From positions 1-58,341 of the forward strand of contig CALAHF010000087.1 in assembly GCA_937891465.1 (NCBI GenBank): a stretch of DNA of 58,341 nucleotides, in the 5' to 3' direction. Both the position numbers and the translations under genes were made by a program. This DNA comes from an uncultured Verrucomicrobiales bacterium (GTDB taxonomy: Bacteria > Verrucomicrobiota > Verrucomicrobiia > Verrucomicrobiales > DEV007). Within the stretch, counting starts at the first letter, position 1. The number at the start of each line of letters is the position of its first letter. Below are positions 9,761-46,597 of the stretch, one piece after another. The notes beneath the pieces are model-generated. The model had not been told where the DNA came from and did not search any database. It was given only the letters and a program-made list of their open reading frames with translations.

Positions 9761-9803
9761 CGAACCAACCCTATTGGTTCATCGAACAGACCCTATTGGA
9801 TCG
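9761..9803 (+). repeat. Palindromic-unit dimer, copy 1 (intergenic)
   Basis: Two units start at 9761 and 9783, 22 nt apart. The first is almost a perfect hairpin (CGAACCAA-CCCTA-TTGGTTC), the second has the same ACCCTATTG core. Positions 9777-9803 are identical over 27 nt to 15204-15230. A degenerate relative (CAAACACACCTATTGTTTG) lies at 9877-9895. It sits between RNase R and the sigma factor gene. Confidence 0.85.
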
Positions 9804-15187: not shown

Positions 15188-15284
15188 CGATCGAACAGTA
15201 TCCGTTCATCGAACAGACCCTATTGGATCGTAGCGCCTTTACGATCAAACAGCGTTTGATCGATGACTCAATAGGGGTGATTCG
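15188..15284 (+). repeat. Two palindromic-unit dimers, copies 2a and 2b
   Basis: Units start at 15188, 15210, 15242 and 15264: two 22-nt dimers whose starts are 54 nt apart. The first and last units are in inverted orientation. Unit three (CGATCAAACAGCGTTTGATCG) is a perfect 8- to 9-bp palindrome with a short loop. The block fills nearly the whole space between the symporter stop and the esterase ATG at 15291. Confidence 0.85.
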
Positions 15285-22710: not shown

Positions 22711-23784
22711 TTACTTCTTTTTAATCACAATTTCCACTCGCCGATTCAAGGCCTGCTCTTCCGCTGTACCTTCGACGGAAACGAGCGGGCGGTTTTTTCC
22801 AAGACCAACAACGCGGACGTTTTTTACCGGCAGCTGAAGTTTTTCCACCAGCCATTCCCGCACTGCGCGAGCCCGATTCATGCTCAACGTGTTGTTGTAT
22901 TCATCGGCACCGAACGAGTCGGTATGCCCTTCGATAATGAATTCAGCGTCCGGATTGGTCTGTACAATAAATGCCAATTTCATCATGCTGATCCGTGCCA
23001 TTTCCTTCAATTTGTATTCGTTGTATTCAAATAAAATATCAGTCGGCATCACAACTGTCTTCTCTCCAGAGGGTAGCTTACCCCCGGTATTTCCGATCAA
23101 ATCACCAAGCGTCGTTAAGCCTTTCAATGCGCTGTCACCGTTTTTGCTGTTACCCTTTGCCTTGGCGACGGCGTCTTTGAAAAATTCGTCCGTATCCAGC
23201 CCTGTATTAATCTCATCTGAATTCACGGTCATTACCGCTTGCGCGTTTGAAACCACGTTGGATGTCTCAACAAGTTTTTCACGCATCTGCGCGAGATCAT
23301 TCGCAAGAACCTTTGCGGTCGAAACATCGAGCGAACCAGCTTCCGGTCCACCAAGTGAAACCGCGGCCATTTGCGGAGATTCTGCATTGAAAAGCTGCGG
23401 CGTTTCCACCGGTGACATCCTTAAAACTTCGTCCTTCAATTTTTCAAAAACGTCGAACTCATCGAGCTTCAAATCTTCCGTGTCGCTCAGCTTTTCAGGC
23501 TTGGAAACTTCCTCAAGAATCGCCTCGTTTTCCGGTAACAATGCATCCAACTTGTCACTGTCCATGATCAAACGCTCTTTTGGAGCGAGCTGAATCGGTT
23601 CCGTTCCAGCAGCGGGGCCACCCGCCATCCAATCCATTCCACCGAGCACCATGTAGAGTCCCATGTGCGCGATAACCGAGACCAAAAGCGCCAACAAAAT
23701 CCACCAGCCCAAGTTACGGGTTGATTCCACTTTGAAAGTTGAGACTCCGGGAGCCGGATGCCAGTCGTAGTCAGACGATGCCAT
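22711..23784 (-). CDS. OmpA-family peptidoglycan-binding protein with N-terminal membrane anchor
   Basis: 357 residues. One membrane helix at about 28-48 (WWILLALLVSVIAHMGLYMV), a long acidic and helical periplasmic stretch, and a C-terminal OmpA/MotB domain (FIIEGHTDSFGADEYNNTLS, NRARAVREWLVEKL, NRRVEIVIKKK) that binds peptidoglycan. The topology is that of a MotB/TolR-like inner-membrane protein rather than a barrel. It is divergent from the lipase-maturation-factor gene with 39 nt between start codons. Confidence 0.85.
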   Translation of the reverse strand: MASSDYDWHPAPGVSTFKVESTRNLGWWILLALLVSVIAHMGLYMVLGGMDWMAGGPAAGTEPIQLAPKERLIMDSDKLDALLPENEAILEEVSKPEKLSDTEDLKLDEFDVFEKLKDEVLRMSPVETPQLFNAESPQMAAVSLGGPEAGSLDVSTAKVLANDLAQMREKLVETSNVVSNAQAVMTVNSDEINTGLDTDEFFKDAVAKAKGNSKNGDSALKGLTTLGDLIGNTGGKLPSGEKTVVMPTDILFEYNEYKLKEMARISMMKLAFIVQTNPDAEFIIEGHTDSFGADEYNNTLSMNRARAVREWLVEKLQLPVKNVRVVGLGKNRPLVSVEGTAEEQALNRRVEIVIKKK

Positions 23785-23823
23785 ATCGGTGTCGAATTTA
23801 CGCTATTTTTCCCGTTCAGTAAA

Positions 23824-25443
23824 ATGCGATCCCGTGCGATAATTCCCCCCGTGTTTCAGAGCATTTATCACTGGTTTTTTCCAAAAGAGAGCGCGTCTCT
23901 CGCCCATCACTCTATCGCCCGAATGCTGTTTTTGCGGGGGCTGGGGGTGATTTACCTCATCGCGATTTTATCGTGGTGGGTTCAGGTTCATCTCTTGGTC
24001 GGCGAAAACGGGCTCGTTCCCGCCAGCAGCTTTTTGGCGCAAATCGACGGTCAGGTCGGATTTTTTGACTATCCTACCCTGTTTCGGATCACTGGAGCCA
24101 GCGACCTCGCAATTCACTTTACGTGCGCGATCGGCTGCATTTTGGCCATTAGCCTCATCGCCGGATTTTTCCCCGGTCCAGCCCTCGCGGGATTGTGGAT
24201 TCTCTACCTTTCATTCCTGAACACCGGCAGCGTTTTCATGTCTTTTCAGTGGGACATTTTGCTGCTTGAAACCGGTTTCCTCGCGATTTGGTTTGCGCCA
24301 TGGCGACTGCTTTCGCTGGGGTGGAAAACTCCCGTGCCACTTGGAACTTCTCATCGTGTCGTTCTCATCTTTTTCTGGGTTCTTATTGCGAAACTCATGT
24401 TTTTCTCCGGCTGGGTAAAACTCGCCTGGGCAGGCCCGAATTATCCCGAGTGGTCGCCAAATCACACGGCGATGAGCTTTCATTATTTCACCCAACCCTT
24501 GCCGACGTGGACCGCATGGTGGGCCCACCAGCTTCCTGAAGGCATTCAAAAATTTAGTTTATGGCCGATGTATCTCGTCGAACTCGTGCTCCCGTTTTTT
24601 ATTTTTCTCGGACCACGATGTCGGCAAATCGCAGCAATCGGTTTTACCGGCCTGATGGTGCTCATTTCGCTGACCGGCAATTACACCTATTTTAATTGGT
24701 TGACGATTGTTCTCTGCATCCCGCTCATTCCCGACCGATTCTGGCCACGGCGGATTTTCGAAAAACTCAAAATCAGTTTTCACGAACCAACCCTATTGGT
24801 TCGACGAACGAACCCTGTTGGTTCGAAAATCGGGTGGGTCGGGTTCGGCATCCGGACGCTTCCGTTGCTGGTAATCGCTCTGCTGAATTTTCAGAGTGTT
24901 TTTTCCGATTTACGAAACGCTCCAAATCCGGTGACAACAATTGATTTTACGCCGGAGGTTTTGGATTCTTTTTCGCAAAAAGTCGGTGGGTGGCATCTCG
25001 TTTCTGGCTACGGCTTGTTTCGAACAATGACGACGACGCGTCCTGAAATCATCGTGGAAGGCAGTCGTGATGGTCAATTGTGGACGGCCTATGATTTTAA
25101 ATGGAAGACTGATCGCTTTGATGAAAAGCCGCGATTTGTCGCTCCGCATCAACCTCGGGTGGCGTGGCAACTGTGGTTTGCTGCGTTGGAACAAGGTTAC
25201 AGTCCGCGAGGGCGCAATGCTGGGTGGATCAGTAATCTGGTGATGAAATTGCTAAAAGGCGACGAAGCGGTGCAGGTTCTTTTTTACGAAAATCCGTTTC
25301 CGAATACCCCGCCGAAGTACATTCGAATGCGGCAATTTGATTATGAATTTACGACGCGAGAAGAACGACGAAAATCCGGCGATTGGTGGAAACGCTATCG
25401 AGCGCGGAACTTTTTGTCCCCAGTTTCACTTCGCTCGAATTGA
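23824..25443 (+). CDS. Lipase maturation factor family protein
   Basis: Start ATG 23824 avoids overlap with the divergent OmpA gene; 539 residues. The N-terminal two thirds have several membrane helices (LFLRGLGVIYLIAILSWWVQ, WDILLLETGFLAIWF, FFSGWVKL). The C-terminal soluble domain carries the LMF signature: VSGYGLFRTMTTTRPEIIVE, YDFKWKTD, then FVAPHQPRVAWQLWFAALEQ. Vertebrate LMF1 helps lipases fold in the ER; the bacterial role is not known. A repeat dimer at 24783-24825 is translated in frame as residues 320-334 (PTLLVRRTNPVGS) in a hydrophilic loop between helices. Confidence 0.85.
   Translation: MRSRAIIPPVFQSIYHWFFPKESASLAHHSIARMLFLRGLGVIYLIAILSWWVQVHLLVGENGLVPASSFLAQIDGQVGFFDYPTLFRITGASDLAIHFTCAIGCILAISLIAGFFPGPALAGLWILYLSFLNTGSVFMSFQWDILLLETGFLAIWFAPWRLLSLGWKTPVPLGTSHRVVLIFFWVLIAKLMFFSGWVKLAWAGPNYPEWSPNHTAMSFHYFTQPLPTWTAWWAHQLPEGIQKFSLWPMYLVELVLPFFIFLGPRCRQIAAIGFTGLMVLISLTGNYTYFNWLTIVLCIPLIPDRFWPRRIFEKLKISFHEPTLLVRRTNPVGSKIGWVGFGIRTLPLLVIALLNFQSVFSDLRNAPNPVTTIDFTPEVLDSFSQKVGGWHLVSGYGLFRTMTTTRPEIIVEGSRDGQLWTAYDFKWKTDRFDEKPRFVAPHQPRVAWQLWFAALEQGYSPRGRNAGWISNLVMKLLKGDEAVQVLFYENPFPNTPPKYIRMRQFDYEFTTREERRKSGDWWKRYRARNFLSPVSLRSN
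24783..24825 (+). repeat. Palindromic-unit dimer, copy 3, inside the lipase maturation factor gene
   Basis: Units at 24783-24803 (perfect 8-bp stem CGAACCAA/TTGGTTCG around CCCTA) and 24805-24825 (one stem mismatch), 22 nt apart. The reading frame passes straight through. Confidence 0.88.
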
Positions 25444-30993: not shown

Positions 30994-31038
30994 ACGAGCC
31001 AACAGGGTTAGTTCATCGAATGAACCCTGTTGACTCGT
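30994..31038 (+). repeat. Palindromic-unit dimer, copy 4, forming one long hairpin
   Basis: Units start at 30995 (inverted) and 31017, 22 nt apart. Because they face each other, arms 30994-31009 and 31023-31038 pair over 16 bp with one mismatch around a 13-nt loop. It lies just after the oxidoreductase stop (31058, minus strand) and before the propeller ATG (30939), so it could act as an attenuator or 3' stabiliser. Confidence 0.88.
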
Positions 31039-32772: not shown

Positions 32773-34590
32773 TCACCCCAGCGCCTTCAGCATCGCCTTC
32801 TCCACTAAAATTGCAGCAAGTTCTTCGGTGGCTTCGTCGAGAACTTTATTCGCGGCCTTTAGTTTTGCGACGTCCTGAGCTTCGTCAGCGACAGCTGTTT
32901 TGACTTCGTCGACTGCGGATTGAATCGACGCCAATTCATCGGCAGAAAGTTCATCGCCAGCCATCGAAATGGCTTGCACAACCGCGGGAATCAGTTCGTC
33001 GCTTTTCAGTTTCGCTTCGGTCCAAATCCGCGCGTTCATGTCGTCGAACGCGTAATCGACAGATTCGCTGATCATCGCCTCGACCGCTTCATCATCGACA
33101 TCGACGGCAGAGTTTTCGATTTCTAGAACGCGATCTTCGCCGGTATTTGTATCTCTGGTCAGGACACTCAGAATTCCGTTTTCATCGATGGAGAATTGAA
33201 CGCCGACACGCGCGGACCCTTTTGCACCGGGCTCAAAATCGAGTTCGATTCGTCCGAGTTCCCAGTTGTCTTTTGCGATTTCGCGCTCGCCCTGCAAGAC
33301 ACGAACCAACATCGATTTTTGGTCACCAACGGCATTGGTGAAGAGCTCGCCGGCTTTTGCCGGAATCGTTGTGTTACGGGGAATGATCACATTCATCAAC
33401 CCACCAAAGGTTTCGATGCCGAGCGAAAGTGGCGTCACATCAAGGAGGACAACTTGCTGAACTCGACCGCACAAAATCCCTGCCTGAATCGCTGCGCCAA
33501 GGGCGATCGCCTCGTCAGGATTCTGCGAAATGTCAGGCTCAATCCCAAACCATTCAGCAACGAGTTTTCGTACTAACGGAATCCGCGTCGAACCGCCGAC
33601 AAGGATTACACGATCCAACCCTGTTGATTCATCGATCCAACCCTGTTCGATCGTGGTGCGTTTGCAAAACGTGCGGGTCAGTTCGATCACGGGACGAGCG
33701 ATTTTTTCAAATTCGGGGCGGCTGATTTCGAGTTCGAAACTGTGTTCGCCGTCAAAAAATGGCAGTAAAATTTTTGCGGTCTCGGTGTCGGAGAGCTGCT
33801 CTTTCGCAGTTCGAGCTGCCGCGAGAATTTTGGTGCGTTCTTCGCCGGTGAAATCGGATCCCAGCTCGAGTTTTTCGGCAATGAAATCGGTTACGGCGTC
33901 ATCGATGTCGTCTCCACCGAGGTGGGTGTCACCTGCAGTCGCGACGACTTGAAAAACGCCGTCGCGCATTTCGAGCAACGACAAATCAAACGTCCCTCCG
34001 CCGAAATCGTAAACGGCGACACGGGCATTCTCGTCGAGTTTATCGAGTCCGTAGGCGAGGGCGGCTGCGGTGGGTTCGTTGATGATTCGTTCAACGGTCA
34101 GCCCGGCGATTTCTCCGGCTCGTTTCGTTGCATTCCGTTGGGCATCATTAAAATAGGCAGGAACGGTGATCACGGCACGTGTAATCGATTCTTCGAGGGC
34201 GTATTCGGCGGTAACCTTCAATTTTGCCAGAATTTTTGCCGAAACGTCTTCGGGTAGAAGCGTCTCTCCGTTCGCCGAAATTGCAGCCCAGCCATCATTT
34301 AATCGGGTGATCTCAAACGGGCTTTTTGATTTTTCCTCGGCGGGAATTTCATCAAATCGTCGACCGACCAGGCGTTTGATCGAGGCAAACGTCCGTTTGG
34401 GAGCGACCGCTGCCATTCGCCGGGCGGGTTCGCCAACGAGGACGTCTCCTTTTTCTGGAAAATGAACGATCGAAGGTAGGATCCGATTGCCATTCTCATC
34501 GGCTAGTAGAATGGGAAATCCGGAATCAACGACGCCAACAAGCGAGTGCGTGGTGCCGAGATCGATGCCGATGATGGTGTTTGAAGACAT
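32773..34590 (-). CDS. Hsp70-family chaperone (DnaK/HscA-like)
   Basis: 605 residues, shorter than DnaK and close to HscA. ATPase signatures: [48 protein letters not shown]. The substrate-binding domain follows ([20 protein letters not shown]). The short helical lid lacks the EEVD-like tail of DnaK. Next to no co-chaperone gene, so its client is unknown; HscA would need a hscB/isc context that is not seen. A repeat dimer at 33611-33653 is read in frame as residues 313-327 ([15 protein letters not shown]), directly before the VGGSTR adenosine motif. Confidence 0.9.
33611..33653 (-). repeat. Palindromic-unit dimer, copy 5, inside the Hsp70 gene
   Basis: Units at 33611 (CGATCCAACCCTGTTGATTC) and 33633-33653 (CGATCCAACCCTGTTCGATCG), 22 nt apart as written on the plus strand; the gene reads the opposite strand without a stop. 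Confidence 0.88.
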
Positions 34591-39438: not shown

Positions 39439-39535
39439 CGAACCAAAAGGGTTGATTCATCGAACTTACCCTGTTGCTTCGAAACTGCTTCACGAACATA
39501 CCCTATTGAATCTTCGAACAGACCCTGTCCGATCG
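39439..39535 (+). repeat. Two palindromic-unit dimers, copies 6a and 6b
   Basis: Units start at 39439 (core inverted), 39461, 39493 and 39515: two 22-nt dimers with starts 54 nt apart and an 11-nt linker, the same geometry as at 15188-15284. The block separates the fusion gene from the pseudopilus operon. Confidence 0.87.
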
Positions 39536-44254: not shown

Positions 44255-46597
44255 TCAAACAGCCTCGTCCTGTCCAACGATTTGAACCTCGGTCTCGAGT
44301 TCAATATCGCGCTCAGCGCGGGCTTTGGCTTTGATGTTTGCAATCAATTCGAGCACTTCCTGAGCGGTAGCGGTGTTGTCGCTGTTGATGATGAAATTTC
44401 CGTGAATTGGCGAGACGATTGCTTTGCCAACGCCAGTTTCTTTCAAGCCGAGCTCGTCGACCAGCTGCCCCGCTCCGAGTGAGGTCGTTGGATTTTTGAA
44501 AATACAGCCGGCACTCGCGGCGATCGGTTGAGAGGTCTTGCGCTTGTTTTTTGACGCTTCAATTTTCTCGGCAATTTCTGCTGCGGGGGCAGGCTCGCCT
44601 TCGAAAACGGCGGAAACGGCGACGTTGTGCGCCAGCTCGGGGACGTTGCGGTAGTGAACCTGCATTGAGGTCGCGGCTTTCTCGAGAATATCACCGTCGC
44701 TGTCGATCATTCGCACGCTGACGACTTGATCAAACGTCTCGGTTCCCATGGCTCCGGCGTTCATGCGCAAACTACCGCCGACCGCTCCGGGAATGCCTTC
44801 CATCCACTCGAACCCTCCAAGTTCCGCGCCGAGGGCGGCTGCCGCGAGGGCTTTGTATTTCACGCCTGCGCCGGCACGAATGGTATTGCCATCGACATGG
44901 ATTTCGGAAAATTCGCCGCGAACGGGGCAACAAACCACTCCGGGAATTCCACCATCACGCACGAGCAAGTTCGATCCACGGCCGACGACGCGCAGGGGTA
45001 ATCCCGTTGCCGCGCAATGTTTTACGAGTCGTGCAAAACCAGGTTCAGTGGTGGGCTCGGCCCAAAATTGGGCGGGGCCACCGACCTTCATCGTGGTGTG
45101 TTTCCGCATCGGTTCGTAAAGTTTGATGACGGCATCTTCTTCGTCGATAACGCTGCGGAGCTGATCGATGGTGGCCAAATCGGTCGTCAAGCGCGTTCCG
45201 ACTTCGTGAATGTTTCCCGCGCCGAGCGTGATCACCCAATCGCCGGGCTTGAGTTGATTTCCGATTTCAAGATGAAGTGTCGCGAGATCGGGATGGGAAA
45301 ACGCTTTCTCGGTTTTACCGCGTTCTTTAACGGCGTCGACGATGGTCTGACCGGTAATTCCGGGAATCGGCTGCTCGCTGGCAGGGTAAATATCGGTGAC
45401 CCAGAGTTCATCGACTTCATCAAAAGCCGCGCCAAATTCATCGCGCAACAGCTGCGTCCGCGTGAAGCGATGCGGTTGGAAAAGGCAAATGAGGCGGCCC
45501 TGATGCTGGGTTCGGGTGGTCTGAAGGGTCGCCGCGACTTCTGTGGGGTGATGCCCGTAATCATCGACGATTGTCACAAAATCAGACTGACGTTTCAGTT
45601 CAAAGCGACGTTTGGCTCCACGAAAACTGCCGAGCGCTTCATCGATTTGATCGATTGAAATCCCGATTTCTGTTCCCAGTGCAATCGCAGCAAGGGCGTT
45701 CAGTACATTGTGATCACCAGGAATCCCTAGACGCACGCGGCCGAGTTCTTTGCCGTTTTTTACCACAGTAAATTCCGTTCCTGCGCCTTTTTGAACGAGT
45801 TTGGTCGCTGAATAGTTGAACTCTGGATTCAATCCGTAGCTGATCGCAGTCTCTCGTCCTGCAAGAATTTTCGTCGCGTTCGGGCATTCACCGCAGTAAA
45901 TCACGGATCCGCGCGTCTGATCGCAGAACTGTTTGAAAACCCCGCAAATTTCTTCCAAACCACCTTGGTAGTGGTCGATGTGCTCAGCTTCGACATTGAG
46001 CAAAATAGCGTGTTCTGAGTGAAAATTCACCAAGGTTCCATCGCTTTCGTCGCCCTCAGCGATGAAATATTCGCCTTCCGGCTCGAAGTTTGCATTTGTC
46101 CCCAGGATCGGGATTTCTGCGCCGACATAATGCGAAGGCGAGCGCCCACCCGTTCGTAAAACGTGGGCAGCCAACGCTGAAGTCGTTGTCTTTCCGTGGG
46201 TTCCGGCAACGACGACGCCCTTCCGGCCGGTCATAATAGCCGCAAGTGCTTCAGCACGCCGCAACAGAGGGATTCCAGCTGTGATGGCTGCATCGAGCGC
46301 TACATTCTTGCCCTTCTTAACCGCTGAGGTGTAAACGACGACGTCCGCTCCGTTGACTTCATCTGGGTGATTGGGCGAGGAAAATTTAAGCCCGACGCCT
46401 TCGAGGCGCTCCGTTTCGGTCGTCGTCACGCGATCTGATCCTGAAACCGTATGTCCCATGCCGATAAACAGCGATGCGAGACCGCTCATGCCTGAGCCGG
46501 CAACGCCGATGAGATGAATGCGAACCGGATTTTCGGAATCCGAAAATTGGTTAGCCCATTCTGAAAAATCGTTCGCGGCAGGTGTGGAATCGCTCAT
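44255..46597 (-). CDS. murC-murB: MurC-MurB fusion: UDP-N-acetylmuramate-alanine ligase and UDP-N-acetylenolpyruvoylglucosamine reductase
   Basis: Start ATG 46597 gives MSDSTPAANDF and 780 residues; a longer frame start at 46678 lacks similarity. Residues about 25-475 are MurC: GVAGSGMSGLASLFIGMGHT, ATP loop AGTHGKTTTSALAAHVLRT near 130, and YGHHPTEVAATLQTTR. Residues about 485-780 are MurB: HTTMKVGGPAQFW, VGRGSNLLVRDGGIPGV, and the catalytic-serine block ASAGCIFKNP. Two successive cytoplasmic steps (MurB then MurC) are thus on one chain in reverse reaction order. Fusion at this point is known from some Verrucomicrobia. No frameshift is seen in the linker. Confidence 0.93.
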   Translation of the reverse strand: MSDSTPAANDFSEWANQFSDSENPVRIHLIGVAGSGMSGLASLFIGMGHTVSGSDRVTTTETERLEGVGLKFSSPNHPDEVNGADVVVYTSAVKKGKNVALDAAITAGIPLLRRAEALAAIMTGRKGVVVAGTHGKTTTSALAAHVLRTGGRSPSHYVGAEIPILGTNANFEPEGEYFIAEGDESDGTLVNFHSEHAILLNVEAEHIDHYQGGLEEICGVFKQFCDQTRGSVIYCGECPNATKILAGRETAISYGLNPEFNYSATKLVQKGAGTEFTVVKNGKELGRVRLGIPGDHNVLNALAAIALGTEIGISIDQIDEALGSFRGAKRRFELKRQSDFVTIVDDYGHHPTEVAATLQTTRTQHQGRLICLFQPHRFTRTQLLRDEFGAAFDEVDELWVTDIYPASEQPIPGITGQTIVDAVKERGKTEKAFSHPDLATLHLEIGNQLKPGDWVITLGAGNIHEVGTRLTTDLATIDQLRSVIDEEDAVIKLYEPMRKHTTMKVGGPAQFWAEPTTEPGFARLVKHCAATGLPLRVVGRGSNLLVRDGGIPGVVCCPVRGEFSEIHVDGNTIRAGAGVKYKALAAAALGAELGGFEWMEGIPGAVGGSLRMNAGAMGTETFDQVVSVRMIDSDGDILEKAATSMQVHYRNVPELAHNVAVSAVFEGEPAPAAEIAEKIEASKNKRKTSQPIAASAGCIFKNPTTSLGAGQLVDELGLKETGVGKAIVSPIHGNFIINSDNTATAQEVLELIANIKAKARAERDIELETEVQIVGQDEAV

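Follow-up and report, generated by a model that had tools for sequence, protein, structure and literature searches.

The window, a stretch of 58,341 nucleotides of DNA, carries on its forward strand an open reading frame at positions 23758–25443 that Pfam identifies as a lipase maturation factor family gene, LMF1 (PF06762, E = 9e-38; PF25179, E = 8e-43). The start codon is uncertain; we place the gene at 23824–25443 and count residues from position 23824. Within it, on the same strand, lies a 43-nt element (24783–24825) made of two 21-nt units in the same 'P' orientation, separated by 1 nt and spaced 22 nt from start to start. Unit 1 (24783–24803, CGAACCAACCCTATTGGTTCG) has the form CGAACCAA-CCCTA-TTGGTTCG, a perfect 8-bp stem with a 5-nt loop. 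Unit 2 (24805–24825, CGAACGAACCCTGTTGGTTCG), with the loop CCCTG, is identical to unit 1 at 19 of 21 positions and has a single stem mismatch, so that a preliminary description of both units as intact was right for the first and slightly generous for the second. The whole is a direct (PP) dimer scoring 34/34 against the family consensus, and it is read in phase 2, without a stop, as HEPTLLVRRTNPVGS (residues 320–334); the Pfam assignment and the translation bear out the earlier claim of an in-frame repeat dimer in a lipase maturation factor gene. As single-stranded DNA the dimer has a fold of -14.5 kcal/mol, better than 200 of 200 dinucleotide shuffles (z = -3.95). The site is predicted to be a disordered loop between helices, in keeping with the loop between membrane helices proposed previously: predicted helices flank it, and in an AlphaFold model (30-sequence alignment, mean pLDDT 85.7) pLDDT falls below 50 in just two segments, residues 323–333 and 440–442.

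The repeat is abundant, both in the window and in the uncultured Verrucomicrobiales genome from which the window comes (G000). Six unit matches with at most three mismatches occur in the window against 0.01 expected, and further dimers of the family lie at 9761–9803 (forward strand, PP form) and 30995–31037, with two dimers 54 nt apart at each of 15188–15284 and 39439–39535. An Rfam search of the window matched no known RNA family. Across the whole genome the pattern GAACCAACNNNNTTGGTTC, allowing one mismatch, gave 207 forward matches against 1 in a reversed control. A scan for the 43-nt dimer found 310 in 1.66 Mb sampled, which extrapolates to about 1,100 across the 5.97-Mb draft, and the reversed sequence at the same threshold gave none in its first 858 kb. 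In the genome as sampled, the octamers ACCCTGTT and ACCCTATT occur mostly in the dimer context. The dimer consensus is CGAWC-NN-A-YAGGG-T-NN-GTTCR-N-CGAAC-NN-A-CCCTR-T-NN-GWTCG, its flanks continuing as an inverted repeat (TTTYA...TRAAA) that is not a target-site duplication. The canonical form is inverted (MP) and the PM form is almost absent; direct dimers (PP or MM, as in LMF1) make up about 40% in G000 against about 6% in its congener G001, where nearly all dimers are MP. Independent flipping of units fails to explain the PP/MM excess in G000 and the near-absence of PM. Dimers often occur in pairs 54 nt apart, that is, a 43-nt element and an 11-nt linker near AAANGCCNTTT (48 pairs in sampled G000 and G001); the linker is itself near-palindromic and the spacing a multiple of three. 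By strict patterns the family is present in genus g1, to which G000 and G001 belong, and in a second genus, g12, with 0–5 copies per genome in genus g2; the same patterns found no copies in the remaining genera searched.

Most copies lie outside genes. Among the 310 sampled in G000, 215 (69%) were intergenic, 70 (23%) overlapped a gene end and 25 (8%) lay inside predicted genes, as called by a simple purpose-made gene finder whose start codons are uncertain. Copies sit close 3' of stop codons, clustering 0–20 nt past them at a median distance of 17.5 nt in G000 and 8.5 nt in G001. Elements per kb of gap were 1.96 in convergent, 1.75 in co-directional and 0.83 in divergent gaps in G000, and 4.72, 2.50 and 2.15, respectively, in G001. 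Published REPs likewise lie near stop codons and are few in divergent gaps (PMC3733652). Of two informative syntenic G001/G000 gaps with an element, a tiny sample, neither was shared. With 21-nt palindromic units in high copy, inverted dimers and a mainly extragenic position near gene 3' ends, the family is REP-like. We also observed in the window, with repeats on both sides, an open reading frame (44258–46597) that fuses Mur ligase and MurB domains (Pfam Mur_ligase, FAD_binding_4, MurB_C).

The LMF1 loop carries the element in five genomes, G000, G001 and three species of g12 (G029, G023 and G035), in phase 2 in all five; being common to these species, it is not a fresh private insertion. Palindrome and peptide are both absent from 27 element-free relatives, and likeness to HEPTLLVRRTNPVGS is confined to sequences that have the DNA repeat. 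Thus, no repeat-free orthologue was found to carry the same peptide, the outcome that the preliminary description had set against its own reading. Its forecast that such orthologues should lack 14–16 residues failed, however: between fixed alignment points 22 of the 27 have exactly 111 nt (37 residues), against 129 nt (43 residues) in G000 and 120 nt (40 residues) in G001, with 132, 132 and 156 nt in the g12 carriers. The net gain over the element-free loop is then +6 residues in G000, +3 in G001 and +7 to +15 in g12, and the sole carrier with a clean +45 nt (+15 residues) is G029 (locus L142). The copies in G000 and G001 both score 34/34, although their host proteins are just 64% identical, and shared elements agree at 18/27 third codon positions, compared with 46% elsewhere (p = 0.03). 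The G000 copy is PP and the G001 copy an inverted MP, and the internal sequence is therefore not simply inherited. That two copies with one unit flipped between them stay so near the consensus, while their proteins diverge by 36%, suggests upkeep by conversion, re-insertion or weak selection at the DNA level. A tree of LMF1 built without the element residues does not separate the branching of g1, g12 and an element-free g2 clade, and the carriers require two changes on it, either one gain and a loss in G012 or two gains.

The repeat is also read in frame in unrelated genes, among them those for an HSP70-family protein, MenD, PanC, CysS, DnaE, GlpD and GalM. Where an intragenic element in G000 could be compared with a confident orthologue in G001 (at least 59% identity), it lay at the identical codon and in the identical frame in 3 of 3 cases (LMF1, HSP70 and MenD). 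The HSP70 gene lies in the window on the minus strand (32773–34590), with a phase-1 copy at 33611–33653 on that strand that falls at the same codon in the congener. The compared interval is 90 nt in most element-free orthologues and 93–96 nt in a few, against 96 nt in g1 (+2 residues relative to most), 144 nt in G012 (a clean +18) and 126 nt in G023. The g1 and g12 elements here stand a few codons apart in different frames and therefore reflect separate events in HSP70. We also noted, in the same MenD loop of the g2 genome G019 (L244), a different short repeat whose core GTACCCTATT occurs three times.

In PanC, the repeat peptide TIQQGKFDESIGLVR occupies residues 215–229, but the protein is hardly altered in length: the interval from SSRN to the conserved IDY has 48 residues where PanC of T. 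maritima and S. aureus has 50, residues 1–282 align onto 1–282 of TIGR00018, and length is identical in five relatives by match coordinates. For PanC and CysS the comparison was by length and by PDB and profile alignments only, and CysS of G000 gave an ambiguous result, between 4 residues shorter and 14 longer according to the relative chosen. The peptides in panC (L097, 10901–11752) and cysS (L188, 17776–19215), TIQQGKFDESIGLVR and TIQQGTFDESIGLVR, are near-identical. GalM of G001 differed by 0 to +3 residues from solved homologues, giving a range of -2 to +3 for the PanC and GalM copies together; GlpD aligned without gaps to the left of the repeat and had a weak right-hand anchor. Relative to element-free orthologues, then, copies add +7 to +18 residues in g12, and -2 to +6 in g1 where anchors are good. 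The small changes in PanC, GalM and HSP70 indicate that the g1 copies overlie native codons and are nearly length-neutral. Targeting of sites whose native protein already resembled the repeat peptide was considered and rejected as too weak, the native sites ranking between the best 1.5% and the middle (48%) of windows.

Another way to view the intragenic copies is by the frame in which they are read. Counting copies that keep a distance of 50 residues or more from the N-terminus and of 30 or more from the C-terminus, with orthologues counted separately and an overlapping artefact at 24805 excluded, phases 1, 2 and 0 occurred 14 : 4 : 0 times (p = 1.4e-4 if copies are independent), or 11 : 3 : 0 by distinct genes. 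Among extragenic copies phase 0 is the frame most often open, and stops therefore do not explain the bias. Phase 1 yields a hydrophilic peptide near TNQQGLFDEPTLLVR, whereas phase 0 yields Cys and aromatic residues, and the bias is likely caused by filtering at the protein level. Freedom from stops in all frames was discarded as a special property of the repeat, since just 3.4% of copies outside genes stay open in each of the six frames, compared with 0.75% in shuffles.

Taking these results together, we consider it likely that the LMF1 element belongs, as an intragenic copy, to an abundant REP-like family of 43-nt double hairpins that expanded in g1, and that it is read as protein. It would already have been present in the common ancestor of G000 and G001, and LMF1 would tolerate it as a hydrophilic, stop-free 15-residue peptide that does little damage at this loop. 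Selection at the protein level may retain only copies read in a frame that gives a peptide of this kind; deep in genes this is phase 1 or 2 and never 0. Less surely, entry may overwrite or lose about as many native codons as it brings, with a net change in g1 of about 0 to +6 residues rather than +15, whether through an insertion accompanied by a deletion or through short-patch replacement by template switching. Short-patch illegitimate recombination is a known process and offers a lead for the mechanism here. The clean insertions of +15 (G029 LMF1) and +18 (G012 HSP70) occur as well, and replacement is therefore not the sole route. We found no evidence for a function of the repeat in LMF1. 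A point against our explanation is that a neutral filler that was purely inherited would be expected to have decayed further than the 34/34 copies show. We regard it as possible, at best tentatively, that the repeat enters coding DNA by a length-neutral swap of some 43 nt of native codons (short-patch template switching or conversion) rather than by insertion, followed by near-consensus upkeep at matching codon positions in different species, and possibly in different genera.

Those two clean gains, and the predicted disorder of the LMF1 loop, would also suit a simpler account, in which an element resembling the Rickettsia palindromic elements (RPEs) entered cleanly, lengthened a permissive loop by about 15 residues and did nothing else. 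LMF1 gained just +6 residues in G000 and +3 in G001, however, and the g1 copies in PanC, GalM and HSP70, with good anchors on both sides, add only -2 to +3; by these lengths simple insertion is disfavoured in g1, and we think it unlikely overall. Sharing of sites could instead reflect permissive LMF1, HSP70 and MenD loops being hit repeatedly in different lineages. The differing HSP70 frames of g1 and g12 fit such recurrence, as do the two changes on an LMF1 tree that leaves g1, g12 and g2 unseparated, and there is a precedent in recB of two Xanthomonas species, where different REPs lie at about one place (PMC3733652). Yet recurrence alone would match frame at all three shared g1 sites about 1 time in 27, and they match in codon too, which leaves this explanation doubtful, though worth keeping in mind.

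A further possibility is that the repeat functions as a DNA or RNA site, for instance for a nucleoid protein or RNA processing, and is selected as such even inside genes. Two divergent orthologues at full consensus, raised third-position identity, clustering just past stops and the richness of convergent gaps would all favour such a site, but the stems show no compensatory covariation, with central pairs 15–29 and 16–28 paired less than chance, and the two informative syntenic gaps share no element; we find this improbable. In anatomy the family, with its short palindromes paired in inverted dimers outside genes, close to stops and in high copy, also resembles a REPIN family mobilised by a RAYT. 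Column frequencies reveal no GTAG or CGTC tag at either element end, however, and no repeat lies within about 1.5 kb of the single Y1 match in each of the G000 and G001 genomes, both of them drafts in which absence is not absolute. The match in G001 is one Y1 protein; that in G000 (L301, C171:2452–2754) is what is left of an IS200-type TnpA and contains a stop. Relatives encoding as many as 36 Y1 proteins are mostly without the family, and of 25 genes flanked by elements on both sides, the 10 that a Pfam search identified include no transposase. With tag and partner both missing we rejected a RAYT link for the element, and mobilisation of the family as REPINs is, in our judgement, quite improbable.

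The question that these copies address is how repeats enter essential genes without breaking them, in-frame REPs being themselves already known. Conserved enzymes (PanC, GalM) and an HSP70 appear to have had native residues overlaid at almost unchanged length, with the same sites filled in diverged species. It is this length-neutral overlay that is new; its mechanism is putative. If repeats do overwrite codons rather than insert, they would supply proteins with block substitutions by a route that standard models of indels and point mutations miss. With about 1,100 copies in g1 and element-free sites in neighbouring genera, the question is open to comparative genomics alone.

Among known systems, the element resembles MITEs as a short, dispersed, non-autonomous element with inverted-repeat ends, but no target-site duplication is shown for it, and the autonomous element that should share its ends was not found. 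With REPINs it shares two inverted palindromes as a unit, hundreds of copies and an extragenic bias; unlike the REPIN/RAYT system, about 40% of its dimers in G000 are direct (PP/MM), and the RAYT that we looked for was not found. Comparable too are the GTAG REPs of Opitutus terrae, a member of the same phylum, Verrucomicrobiota, and other intragenic REP dimers, which have 1–2 bp between partners, in-frame copies, and extragenic copies by stops (PMC3733652); the present repeat is distinguished from these by lacking both the terminal GTAG/CGTC tag and a RAYT, and by its own consensus, with stem ends CGAWC...GWTCG and loop CCCTR. The parallel with Rickettsia drawn in the preliminary description holds as an analogy: RPEs, including RPE-4 and RPE-6, which are CGTC REPs, are likewise palindromes translated in frame in unrelated housekeeping genes (PMC10969869, PMC3733652). 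Compared by description, however, RPEs are about 150 bp long and are described as insertions, while the element here is 43 nt, mostly extragenic and, in g1, nearly length-neutral. In-frame REP dimers have already been reported in Rickettsia and in the verrucomicrobium O. terrae (PMC3733652, PMC10969869), and the present family behaves as they do; we file it beside them, as a variant of intragenic REP-like repeats without tag or RAYT.
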